Virus record (IMG/VR): IMGVR_UViG_3300039100_000035
Location: 1 to 22,674 of that record
Origin: a virus
DNA: 22,674 bases
Strand: one strand, 5' to 3'
The position numbers were made by a program, and so were the translations under genes. The notes below the pieces were generated by a model that made no database searches, was not told the origin of the DNA, and saw only the letters and a list, made by a program, of their open reading frames with translations. Positions 1,983 to 8,392 of the stretch are shown in pieces (position 1 is the stretch's first letter; each line of letters begins with the position of its first letter).

Positions 1983-2004
1983 TTCCGACCGGCGCAAAGT
2001 GAAA

Positions 2005-2028
2005 GGGCGAGGCCGCTAAGCCCCGCCC
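2005..2028 (-). terminator. Intrinsic terminator of the leftward operon
   Basis: The arms GGGCGAGGC (2005-2013) and GCCCCGCCC (2020-2028) pair over nine positions with one A-C mismatch and a six-base loop. Read leftward, the hairpin is followed by TTTCACTTT, a usable U-tract. Read rightward, it is followed by CCTTTGATTGCTT, which is weaker. It probably ends the leftward transcript and may also help stop the rightward replication transcript. The stop codon of the last leftward gene (2016-2018) lies inside the loop. Confidence 0.65.
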
Positions 2029-2276
2029 CCTTTGATTGCTTCACCCAGCTTGATAAGCGCGAGTCCAAGTGATGCCAGCCCGTCACCCATTTCGTCCCTA
2101 AGATCGGCGGTTTTTCCAATCTCCATCGCCGGGTCTATATCCGCCATGGCATGCCACCGCTGCAACGTGCGCCGGTTCATGCCCGTAGCCTCCCGGATGA
2201 TCTCAGGCCACGCTTCCCCGCAAGTATCGCGGCCCAGTCTGGCTAACTCCCCGGTGGTTAATCTCTTGCGTGTCAT
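2016..2276 (-). CDS. Small helix-turn-helix protein (86 aa), last gene of leftward cassette
   Basis: Residues about 8-45 (GELARLGRDTCGEAW, then PEIIREATGMNRRTLQRW) fit a helix-turn-helix: an L-x-R-x-G entry helix, a 'G-x-x-W' segment, a second helix, and a recognition helix N-R-R-T-L-Q-R-W. This arrangement is typical of small phage and host HTH proteins with the pattern 'YGxxWxxxLAxxLGVxxRTVxRW'. The C-terminal 40 residues form a short amphipathic region. The start codon overlaps the stop of the upstream 82-aa gene by four bases (ATGA), so translation is coupled. The protein is a plausible autoregulator of the cassette, with the inverted repeat at 2977-2995 as candidate operator; that is inference. 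Its stop codon lies in the terminator hairpin. Confidence 0.75.
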   Translation of the reverse strand: MTRKRLTTGELARLGRDTCGEAWPEIIREATGMNRRTLQRWHAMADIDPAMEIGKTADLRDEMGDGLASLGLALIKLGEAIKGGGA

Positions 2277-2521
2277 GCGTCAGCATCTTCCCACACATAG
2301 TCTTCGGGCGGGATGTTGATCGGATTAGGATTGCCGCTGACACCGTAACGTGCGCGGATTTCATAGTTACAGCCTATGAAAGCATCGACCCCGTGATTAC
2401 CGCCGTGCTCTATATCTTGCAGGATCACAAAAGCGGCCTGCTCCCCGATAACATGCGCTGCCAGATATTCCTTCCAACGTGCGCGGGCTTCACTGGTTAA
2501 ACGTGTTGCTACTTTTTCCAT
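2273..2521 (-). CDS. Small protein of unknown function (82 aa)
   Basis: The leftward start at 2521 has AGGGG about eight bases upstream. The gene begins one base after the stop of the 51-aa gene and overlaps the next gene by four bases (ATGA), so it sits in a tightly coupled operon. The protein has a helical first half (EARARWKEYLAAHVIGEQAA) and a C-terminal half rich in G, N, P and acidic residues, ending in WEDADA. It carries no signal peptide, membrane segment or recognised catalytic motif. I do not recognise the family. The size, acidity at the C-terminus and operon context are those of phage accessory proteins that bind host or defence proteins, but this is only contextual. Confidence 0.7.
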   Translation of the reverse strand: MEKVATRLTSEARARWKEYLAAHVIGEQAAFVILQDIEHGGNHGVDAFIGCNYEIRARYGVSGNPNPINIPPEDYVWEDADA

Positions 2522-2522
2522 A

Positions 2523-2678
2523 TCAATTTCCCCTCGTGTTTATGTTCATTTCTTGGCAGATTTGCCGCAACTCGGACTCGGTTCGGAACACAAGCATAAG
2601 CCAGAAGTCACCCGTAACGGGCTGGCTATTTGCCTTAACAGTGTTCATGATCTCTTTGCGCATGTGTTCGGCGGTCAT
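2523..2678 (-). CDS. Very small protein of unknown function (51 aa)
   Basis: This frame starts at ATG 2678 (leftward) and stops at 2523-2525. It begins MTAEHMRKEIMNTV, continues through a hydrophobic centre (GDFWLMLVFRTESELRQI) and ends EMNINTRGN. The ATG overlaps the stop codon of the upstream 94-aa gene by four bases (ATGA), and the stop is one base away from the next start. This perfect packing between two likely genes is the main evidence that it is real despite its size. A weak GGGAAG lies about 12 bases before the start, so initiation probably depends on coupling. The function is unknown. Confidence 0.65.
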   Translation of the reverse strand: MTAEHMRKEIMNTVKANSQPVTGDFWLMLVFRTESELRQICQEMNINTRGN

Positions 2679-2959
2679 TGTCTATTCACCGCTTCCCAGA
2701 AAGCGCCCCAAGCGCGATCTGTCCAGAACCCTTGCCCCGGCTTAAATTCTTTGCCGTCATGGATTGAAACAAAGCTGGAGAACCCGTCACCCCACTTGCA
2801 AACGTGAAAAGTCACGTCATCAAAATTGCCCGCAAGCATCCAAGATTTAGTTTCTTGCGCGCGCCTCTTGTCTCGCCCGTGTGTAAGATTGGTTAGGCTA
2901 ACGGTGCCGTACTTCCAATCCCCTATGACGTAGTATGAATTTCCTATTGATTGCGTCAT
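2675..2959 (-). CDS. Small protein of unknown function (94 aa), first gene of coupled cassette
   Basis: The start at 2959 has an excellent leftward ribosome binding site, GGAAGGA, seven to eight bases upstream. The protein is rich in aromatic residues and beta-like segments (NSYYVIGDWKYGTVSL, VTFHVCKWGDGFSSFVSI, PGQGFWTDRAWGAFWEAVNRQ). It has no signal peptide, membrane helix or recognised motif. It is the first of four coupled small genes. A 7-bp-arm inverted repeat (2977-2995) lies immediately upstream of the ribosome binding site, so its expression is probably controlled there. I do not recognise the family. A beta-rich small protein at the head of an accessory operon fits an inhibitor or host-takeover protein, but nothing in the sequence proves it. 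Confidence 0.75.
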   Translation of the reverse strand: MTQSIGNSYYVIGDWKYGTVSLTNLTHGRDKRRAQETKSWMLAGNFDDVTFHVCKWGDGFSSFVSIHDGKEFKPGQGFWTDRAWGAFWEAVNRQ

Positions 2960-2976
2960 GCTGTTTTCCTTCCGTG

Positions 2977-2995
2977 TTGAACCCTATCGGTTCAA
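2977..2995 (-). promoter_or_regulatory. Inverted repeat, candidate operator of leftward cassette
   Basis: Perfect arms TTGAACC (2977-2983) and GGTTCAA (2989-2995) are separated by five bases. The repeat ends 17 bases before the start codon of the 94-aa gene and directly abuts its ribosome binding site. This is the expected position for an operator bound by a dimeric HTH protein such as the one encoded at the end of the operon. It could also act as an RNA hairpin. No convincing promoter hexamers were found immediately around it. Confidence 0.5.
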
Positions 2996-3056
2996 GTCTG
3001 ACCAAACGCGATTGCTATTTGATCAAGCTAGAAACGCTAGAAAGCGCGGCCCGCAC

Positions 3057-3078
3057 ATGAACACCCCGAGTCCAAATG
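3057..3078. repeat. Imperfect direct repeat, right copy (22 bp)
   Basis: This is the partner of 1961-1982, with 19 of 22 identical bases and the exact core CGAGTCCAAATG. It lies in the short non-coding stretch (2960-3101) upstream of the four-gene leftward cassette. The same stretch also has GCTAGAAA twice (3027-3034 and 3036-3043). Confidence 0.6.
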
Positions 3079-3101
3079 CGAGCCAAACGCCATAGAGGGG
3101 G

Positions 3102-3263
3102 CTAGTAGGCTAGTGTTGCTTGCCCGCATTCGGTTAACTTTTGGGCCGATGTTTCCTTTAGACCGCACTTGGGATTGGCCTTAACGTAGTTATTCCAAGA
3201 CTTTGCCAATTGCGTATATGTGAACCCATATTCCCGCGCAGAACATGGCACGCGCGATTGCAT
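3102..3263 (-). CDS. Candidate small leftward gene, possibly 5'-truncated or frameshifted (53 aa)
   Basis: An ATG at 3263 with AAGGA seven bases upstream opens a 53-codon leftward frame. It contains VPCSAREYGFTYTQLAKSWN, then NYVKANPKCGLKETSAQKLT, and ends with a stop at 3102-3104. It has three cysteines and balanced composition and looks like real protein. The same frame stays open and protein-like upstream to a TAG at about 3367, reading HGAAKSKGKYHARSQAGKGP, but without an ATG, GTG or TTG start. Just above that point a different frame reads WCKWGLYIIGRRR. One added base near 3360 would join these into a single protein of about 95-100 residues. It may therefore be a frameshifted, recoded or mis-assembled gene. 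The competing frame ending at 3158 has an SD before ATG 3325 but many CTA/AGG codons and looks less real. The function is unknown. Confidence 0.45.
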   Translation of the reverse strand: MQSRVPCSAREYGFTYTQLAKSWNNYVKANPKCGLKETSAQKLTECGQATLAY

Positions 3264-3373
3264 CCAAATATCCTTAGACGATTGCCCGCTAGGCTTAGGC
3301 CCCTTGCCCGCTTGTGATCTAGCATGATACTTCCCCTTAGATTTAGCGGCCCCATGCCGCGTCTACGCCCGAT

Positions 3374-6553: not shown

Positions 6554-6854
6554 GGCTCCCAAAGAAGACCCGGCCGTTGTCGCCGCCCGCAATGCTGAGA
6601 TTGCTCGAGCCGACAAAGAAAATTTAGGCGCGCAGCAAAGTGTTCTCGACACTCTGACCAAAAGATATGCCCGCCGGTTTGGTCTGGTTAAGGGCCAAGG
6701 CGGCAATCAAGGTAATATCTTGGGCGGTCTGGTTGCGCTTCAAGCGGCGGCCGCTGCCGGTGGTGGGTCTGGTGGTTTGTTCGGTGGATTTACCGGTGGT
6801 GGCGGAGGCGGTGGCGGCATTGGCGGCGACAATTTTTACACTGAATTGAGGTAG
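6540..6854 (+). CDS. Small glycine-rich protein upstream of portal (104 aa)
   Basis: It begins with two consecutive ATG codons (6540 and 6543), overlaps the preceding gene by 14 bases, and has AGGA at 6525-6528 about 11 bases upstream. The first 40 residues are charged and helical (KEDPAVVAARNAEIARADKE), then an RRFGL turn, then Ala runs and a Gly-rich tail with eight glycines in a row ending NFYTELR. Small proteins with a charged helix followed by an 'R-G-F-G' segment and a disordered tail are common just before the portal gene in podoviruses, usually without assigned function. The GTG start of the portal gene is two bases beyond the stop, so the gene belongs to the packaging operon. A virion assembly role is inferred from position only. 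Confidence 0.7.
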   Translation: MMKAKAPKEDPAVVAARNAEIARADKENLGAQQSVLDTLTKRYARRFGLVKGQGGNQGNILGGLVALQAAAAAGGGSGGLFGGFTGGGGGGGGIGGDNFYTELR

Positions 6855-6856
6855 CC

Positions 6857-8392
6857 GTGGACAAGAAATATGTTCTCGAAAAGCTGAACGCTGCCCGACA
6901 AGACCGCAACACGGCTCAAGTCTGGCTGAACGAATGTCTGCGCTTTGCCCGCCCTTTGGCTAACCGGGTAAACTCAACGATCATCAACAGCCCGCGCAAG
7001 CCAGAAGATGAAGACGATCTGTTTGATACGACGCTTCAAGATACGGTGGATGACTTCGGGTCTGACATGACTCACTTGTTCACGCCCCGACATGAGCGCT
7101 GGGTAAAGTTTGAACCAACAGACAATCTATCCGCCGGGGAAAAGAAGCAACTCGAGGCAGAGATTGACGCTGAGGCCCAAGCAGTCTTTGGCGAAATCGA
7201 GCGCTCAAATTTTTATGAGGCGGCCGGTGAGGCGTACCGTGATTGGTCAATATCGGTCATGGCCATGTCGATTGCAGATCCCGGTCCCGGCAAATCGTTT
7301 GACTGCCAGCCGATTGAGTTAGCCTCACTTTTCTTGGCGCGCGGACCATTGGGTTCATTCGATGGACGATTCCGCGAGTGGACGCCTATGAAGCGCTCCG
7401 AGGCCGAAATTGTTTTCAACGGTATCTTAAAAAAATCGGATGAGGCGGAAGGCAAAAAGACTGTCAATCTGGTAGATGGCTGGTGCCGTGACTGGTCTGA
7501 CCCGATGATTGAGGCTTGGTATCACGTCATCTTGATCAACAACAAAGTCGAATACATGAGCGCGCCCGGTGCCCACGTTGGTCCGGGCTCATGCGGTTTT
7601 ATTGTTTCCCCGTGGCGCAAAGCATTTACTACCGCTTGGATGCCGGGGCCTGCCTATAAGGCGTTACCGCCCGCCCGCACGCTAGACGAATTATCATACT
7701 TGTATCTGAAGGCGCTTAACCGCGACGTTGACCCCGTTGTGTCCTATGTGGACGATGGGATTATGAACGTTGAGGGCGGGATCGACGCTGGCACATGGTT
7801 GCCCCGTGGTCCAAATTCTGAGGCTCCAGAAGCTATTTCCAGCAATGCCCGTCTTGATGCAGCCGTGTTCGAGCGCGACAAGCTGGAACAAAAGATTAAG
7901 AAAGCGCTCTATCAGGATCGCCCCGATCAACCCGGTAAAACTCCGCCGACCGCTACCCAATGGGTAGATGAAAAGGCTTGGAACACACGCCGGATGGAAT
8001 TGCCCCGAGACTTGGCAACAAACAACTGGGTTCTTCCGATCATTAACCGGTTCACATATCTAAGAGCCAAGCGCGGACAGGATTTGGGAGTCACGCTCAA
8101 CAAGCAGTTTGTGCAATTGCGCCCGGTCACGCCACTTTCCAAGGCCCGTGATCTTGAGGACATTCAAACCACTATGCAAATCATGAGCATGGTTACGCCA
8201 CTTCTGCAAATGGAGCAGGCTGGGAATCCGATTGACGCACGCGCAACAATTGAGAATTTGCAAAAGACGGCCAATGAGCGCCACTTGGTTCTAAAGTCTG
8301 AGGAACAGATTGCCCAAGAACAAGCTATGGCCATGATGCAGCAAGGCGGCGGTATGCCGATGGATGGAAGCCAAGATGTCTCGATTGCCTAG
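6857..8392 (+). CDS. Portal (head-to-tail connector) protein
   Basis: This protein of 511 residues resembles the podovirus head-tail connector family (T7 gp8 type). The N-terminus reads LEKLNAARQDRNTAQVWLNE followed by CLRFARP, the usual opening helix. The clip and wing region includes DDFGSDMTHLFTPRHERWVK, and the C-terminal part is a long helix with a Met/Gln-rich tail ending MPMDGSQDVSIA. It forms the dodecameric ring through which DNA is packaged and to which the tail attaches. The start is GTG 6857, backed by GAGG at 6848-6851 with five-base spacing. Length is slightly below the T7 protein (about 536 aa). The next gene starts within its last codons. Confidence 0.93.
   Translation: MDKKYVLEKLNAARQDRNTAQVWLNECLRFARPLANRVNSTIINSPRKPEDEDDLFDTTLQDTVDDFGSDMTHLFTPRHERWVKFEPTDNLSAGEKKQLEAEIDAEAQAVFGEIERSNFYEAAGEAYRDWSISVMAMSIADPGPGKSFDCQPIELASLFLARGPLGSFDGRFREWTPMKRSEAEIVFNGILKKSDEAEGKKTVNLVDGWCRDWSDPMIEAWYHVILINNKVEYMSAPGAHVGPGSCGFIVSPWRKAFTTAWMPGPAYKALPPARTLDELSYLYLKALNRDVDPVVSYVDDGIMNVEGGIDAGTWLPRGPNSEAPEAISSNARLDAAVFERDKLEQKIKKALYQDRPDQPGKTPPTATQWVDEKAWNTRRMELPRDLATNNWVLPIINRFTYLRAKRGQDLGVTLNKQFVQLRPVTPLSKARDLEDIQTTMQIMSMVTPLLQMEQAGNPIDARATIENLQKTANERHLVLKSEEQIAQEQAMAMMQQGGGMPMDGSQDVSIA

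Follow-up and report, generated by a model that had tools for sequence, protein, structure and literature searches.

The window analyzed here is the whole of an IMG/VR virus record of 22,674 bp, a fragment of a tailed phage whose TerL shares 32–38% identity with Pelagibacter phage Hodr, Microcystis phage Mwe-JY08, and Burkholderia phage BcepC6B. A unit of four small genes lies between the replication side, whose genes end at 1945, and the gene for the small terminase subunit (3538). It is on the minus strand—opposed to all other long ORFs of the window with an assignable role, which lie on the plus strand. Its first gene encodes a 94-aa orphan protein (2675–2959) and is preceded by a Shine–Dalgarno-like GGAAGG (2968–2973, minus strand). 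A small phage protein of 51 aa bearing an VTGDFWLMLVFR motif (2523–2678) and an 82-aa orphan protein (2273–2521) with a Shine–Dalgarno-like GAGGGG (2530–2535, minus strand) follow, and an 86-aa putative helix–turn–helix (HTH) regulator (2016–2276) is the last gene. The stop of the 94-aa gene overlaps the 51-aa gene in an ATGA (2675–2678), one base (2522) separates the 51- and 82-aa genes, and a second ATGA (2273–2276) joins the 82-aa gene to the HTH start. An earlier note on this DNA had described the cassette in just these terms—four leftward genes of these sizes, two ATGA overlaps and a 1-base gap, running against the rest of the phage—and all ORFs and joints were found as placed; a fifth leftward ORF of 53 aa (3102–3263, minus strand) had been overlooked. 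The four-gene unit conforms to the short-gene operon rule of AcaFinder, i.e., genes on the same strand, gaps <250 bp, and proteins <200 aa (PMC9765179).

Codon statistics support all four ORFs as real genes, together with dN/dS values well below 1 for two of them. Codon scores lie above those of shuffled sequences in every case (p <= 0.006), and the 51-, 82-, and 86-aa genes also beat every antisense control frame, the 82-aa gene with a score of 0.066 per codon. The 94-aa gene scores 0.018 and thus falls below its best antisense control (0.046). Selection could be assessed against the one other record found to carry both the HTH and the 94-aa gene: IMGVR_UViG_3300042310_000405, a 43.7-kb relative hereafter called G001, whose TerL is 98% identical to that of the window. 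The substitution rates (dS 0.35, dN 0.067, dN/dS ~0.19 for the HTH gene; dS 0.13, dN 0.023, dN/dS ~0.17 for the 94-aa gene) place both genes under purifying selection as judged from this comparison, so that selection supports the 94-aa gene where the codon controls do not.

The 86-aa protein is likely a DNA-binding HTH regulator. This assignment builds on a profile match to Pfam HTH_43 below the cut-off (E 0.09 for the window protein and 0.03 for its G001 counterpart), on a GMNRRTLQRW segment, and on an AF2 model that is all-helical at moderate confidence (pLDDT 70). The best Foldseek matches of this model include HTH proteins, none of them significant. The earlier description of a cassette ending in an HTH protein stands for the position of the gene; the HTH assignment of its product is weak by profile. 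Aca proteins are defined as small proteins (<150 aa) with an HTH domain; the Aca-type identity that the earlier note had suggested finds no counterpart in Aca1 or Aca2—the two families compared—with hhalign probabilities <1%. A search of the genome collection with the HTH alignment confirmed no relative, and tblastn of the HTH and 94-aa proteins against plasmids gave no match.

The inverted repeat that had been claimed ahead of the cassette is a palindrome, TTGAACC-N5-GGTTCAA (2977–2995, minus strand), which ends 17 nt ahead of the first gene (94 aa) and constitutes a candidate operator. It is identical in G001 and occurs only once in the window and once in G001. A perfect 7+7 repeat with a loop of 0–12 nt, however, arises in 6–8% of shuffled leaders of this size, and the palindrome is therefore only suggestive. 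Known Aca sites are inverted repeats that lie in the core promoter, no more than 150 bp from the start of the first gene (PMC9410906). A search of the window for a minus-strand sigma-70-like promoter, including the surroundings of the palindrome, found none. A tRNA-like reading of the palindrome region was dropped, as no tRNA was found, and an Rfam search returned no match. At the other end of the unit, the stop codon of the HTH gene lies within a stem-loop with a 13-bp stem (2002–2031, minus strand), a possible terminator; this stem-loop is also present in G001 and folds with −27.2 kcal/mol (z −2.8). The terminator of the earlier note is thus borne out as a hairpin, but its T tail is weak and a terminator scan of the window did not call it. 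A small HTH gene opposed to the late genes and an operator-like palindrome might also suggest a lysogeny (immunity) regulator module. We consider this very improbable, since the HTH gene comes last, behind the cargo, rather than divergent from an early promoter, and no integrase was recognized by eye in the 43.7 kb of G001.

The unit is bracketed by a direct repeat, the 12-mer CGAGTCCAAATG, with a left copy at 1971–1982 and a right copy at 3067–3078, both on the plus strand and both conserved in G001; each phage carries one copy per side. Its core, GAGTCCAA, recurs in the window at 1747, 1761, 1972, 2061, and 3068, always on the plus strand. These five copies are confined to 1.3 kb around the unit, with ~0.35 expected per window strand, and G001 carries four equivalent copies and one elsewhere. 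Regulator-binding or recombination sites are possible explanations. Micro-ORFs of 12–13 codons start at each flanking repeat (1961–2002, MSATSPNVPTGAK; 3057–3095, MNTPSPNASQTP); coding by these is unlikely, because the second one differs nonsynonymously from G001.

The cargo of the unit is made up of orphans and one more widespread protein. Profile searches of all four proteins against Pfam, PHROGs, PADLOC, and NCBIfam and a sequence search of the PDB gave nothing usable, and tblastn against phages yielded no match for any of them. The three non-HTH proteins, which the earlier note had not recognized either, match no defence, anti-defence, or other family in these libraries; a structural, lysis, or metabolic family, which had been named as counterevidence, is likewise not among the matches. 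The 94-aa protein shows no similarity to AcrIF1 or AcrIF8, and its AF2 model is beta-rich, of low confidence, and too poor for a fold search. For the 82-aa protein, a search for relatives found none. The 51-aa protein has relatives on at least 14 viral contigs at 54–69% identity, with no member confirmed in the GTDB genome collection. A weak SAP match of this protein (E 0.008) was dropped because only 1 of 13 family members has it. Its family occurs in many unrelated phages and in other contexts with no evident HTH neighbour, which speaks against the anti-defence reading and favors a different explanation—an ordinary early regulatory operon with a Cro-like HTH regulator, whose small proteins serve host takeover or act as replication accessories rather than in counter-defence. 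On a separate note, near-identical leaders precede small genes, 51-aa relatives included, in GC-rich (62–65%) viral contigs such as L022 and L028. These repeated leaders carry a reading frame with YSMCIGGKSFHHPPPAM and give the impression that each gene forms a cassette.

The comparison with G001 adds a variable element to this picture. G001 retains the palindrome, the 94-aa gene (96% amino acid identity), and the HTH gene (87 aa in G001, 92% amino acid identity); its 94-aa gene is joined straight to the HTH gene by an ATGA, and the pair of 51- and 82-aa genes is absent. The difference amounts to a 401-bp segment on the minus strand (2273–2673) that is present in the window and absent from G001, with ATGA (TCAT on the plus strand) at both of its ends, so that the boundary between the two phages is the ATGA tetranucleotide itself. 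Hence, this one genome pair shows two genes that appear to have been cleanly swapped in or out, and gene content varies beside a constant regulator—the very pattern that the earlier note had proposed to look for in related phages. The ATGA overlaps themselves were rejected as evidence of anti-defence, because G001 packs other genes in the same way: its 39139–43079 region (L016, L017) holds an array of 13 small leftward genes, functionally unassigned, with ATGA/GTGA-type joints throughout.

The large leftward array just described is a further argument for an ordinary early operon, for which tight packing would be normal. Against that explanation, the unit stands apart from the large array, having a leader and a terminal hairpin to itself, and the difference from G001 is a clean change of two genes beside a constant regulator. 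We regard the early regulatory operon as a serious contender that nevertheless falls short of an even chance. The two-gene state of G001 also resembles a toxin–antitoxin unit. HigBA-type operons consist of a small first gene and a second gene for an HTH protein, are coupled, and have a palindrome in front; in this order, the 94-aa protein would be the toxin and the HTH protein the antitoxin and autorepressor. The G001 unit comprises exactly these two genes, 94 aa and an 87-aa HTH, joined by ATGA behind a palindrome. Unlike HigBA, however, the 94-aa protein matches no toxin family in Pfam, NCBIfam, PADLOC, or PHROGs, and two more genes separate it from the HTH gene in the window, which makes a toxin–antitoxin unit improbable.

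The region upstream of the unit differs as well. Directly upstream on the same strand, G001 carries a gene for a 236-aa protein as well as ArdC, the latter with both of its domains (ArdcN, PF08401, E 1.4e-36; zincin peptidase, PF18818, E 1.2e-43). ArdC is a known anti-restriction gene (PMC7213743, PMC5512222). Alignment blocks place 228 bp of the window (3106–3333) in the position of these 1.8 kb of G001; ArdC is missing from the window, and the 53-aa ORF is a C-terminal remnant of the neighbouring 236-aa gene (38% identity over 45 aa, E 1e-10). Set apart by the palindrome leader, the ArdC gene of G001 may belong to another transcription unit. The block between this replacement and the two-gene segment (2674–3105) is 95% identical between the two phages, compared with 83–85% for most of the terminase-side sequence, and the 94-aa gene has a dS of 0.13 as against 0.35 for the HTH gene and 0.46 for TerL. 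Such block identity and low dS suggest a recent exchange of the leader together with the first gene. Elsewhere in G001 (6690–7256, L015), a DPPW-motif gene was noticed by eye, which is likely an MT-A70-type DNA methyltransferase and possibly a further protection against restriction.

Distant relatives show comparable gene content upstream of the terminase. Of 25 other loci that extend 5 kb or more upstream of terL, 4 have ArdC there on the minus strand, and so does Hodr. Further distant relatives have early blocks running leftward at the equivalent place, with small genes and XRE-like genes in them, which again would fit an ordinary early operon. In L056 (2706–3865), the equivalent position upstream of the terminase holds a leftward 272-aa orphan gene that is ATGA-coupled to a terminal XRE-like HTH gene, and a 9+9 bp palindrome lies upstream; this XRE-like protein has no significant similarity to the HTH protein of the window.

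Overall, the unit makes a good candidate for an operon by which the phage counters host defence, though an unproven one. The reading that we prefer, and to which we give roughly an even chance, is a single leftward accessory operon that is autoregulated by its HTH protein and carries exchangeable, probably counter-defence cargo. The anti-defence reading of the earlier note is hereby kept in part: the gene swap, the ArdC gene beside the G001 unit, and a layout like that of acrIF8–aca2 in Pectobacterium phage ZF40 argue for it, whereas the lack of likeness to Aca1 or Aca2, the missing family match of the cargo, and the occurrence of the 51-aa family in unrelated phages with no evident HTH neighbour argue against it. 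Support is partial and extends to a counter-defence or accessory operon in the broader sense; nothing points specifically to anti-CRISPR.

In such an accessory operon, one transcript would start upstream of the 94-aa gene and end after the HTH gene, and the ATGA overlaps would couple translation within the unit. Transcription from the leader would come as an early burst that yields the cargo first and the HTH repressor last; the repressor would—probably as a dimer—bind the leader palindrome and close the operon. Gene order and overlapping joints are directly visible in the two phages, as are the differing middle genes and the conservation of the regulator, the leader, and the first gene. Judging from this one comparison, new cargo enters or leaves exactly at the ATGA stop–start joints, an exchange that keeps the operator, the first gene, and the repressor while the cargo changes. 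An early action of the cargo on the host is most likely, with counter-defence as its most probable role, because ArdC occurs in this leftward block in G001 and in distant relatives. A bolder version is tentative and rather unlikely: a new Aca-like repressor family at the end of a modular operon that swaps whole inhibitor genes at ATGA joints, with the 94-, 82-, and 51-aa proteins as undescribed inhibitors of defence. If the cargo does serve counter-defence, two orphans (94 and 82 aa) and a widespread 51-aa phage protein are worth testing, and the HTH gene offers a new bait for finding such operons. The clean difference of two genes at an ATGA joint is in itself a concrete case of how phages swap accessory genes and leave an operon intact.

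Known anti-defence loci offer three points of comparison. Anti-CRISPR (acr) loci are described as clustering with genes for anti-restriction and with small uncharacterized genes (PMC7648647); G001 resembles such clusters by a genuine ArdC in the leftward block of the HTH unit, unlike the window, which has no ArdC and whose small proteins are orphans. The acrIF1–aca1 pair of the Pseudomonas phage JBD30 (L117, 846–1293) resembles the window unit in that a palindrome precedes a small cargo gene, which overlaps the small HTH gene after it. It differs in that it runs in the same direction as the surrounding head genes and has a longer palindrome located 49 nt upstream, and neither HTH nor cargo is similar between the two. 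The closest layout is found in acrIF8–aca2 of ZF40 (L118, 19220–19859; PMC8434428), which runs leftward between early and lysis/terminase genes, as the window unit does. There, a 92-aa protein is followed by a 116-aa HTH protein, comparable to the 94-aa first gene and the likewise terminal HTH gene of the window, and in both a 7+7 bp palindrome lies 17–23 nt before the first start. Unlike in ZF40, up to three cargo genes are present in the window, no promoter was recognized around its palindrome, and neither protein is similar in sequence. The acrIF8–aca2 operon is proven, and the window unit closely parallels it in layout.
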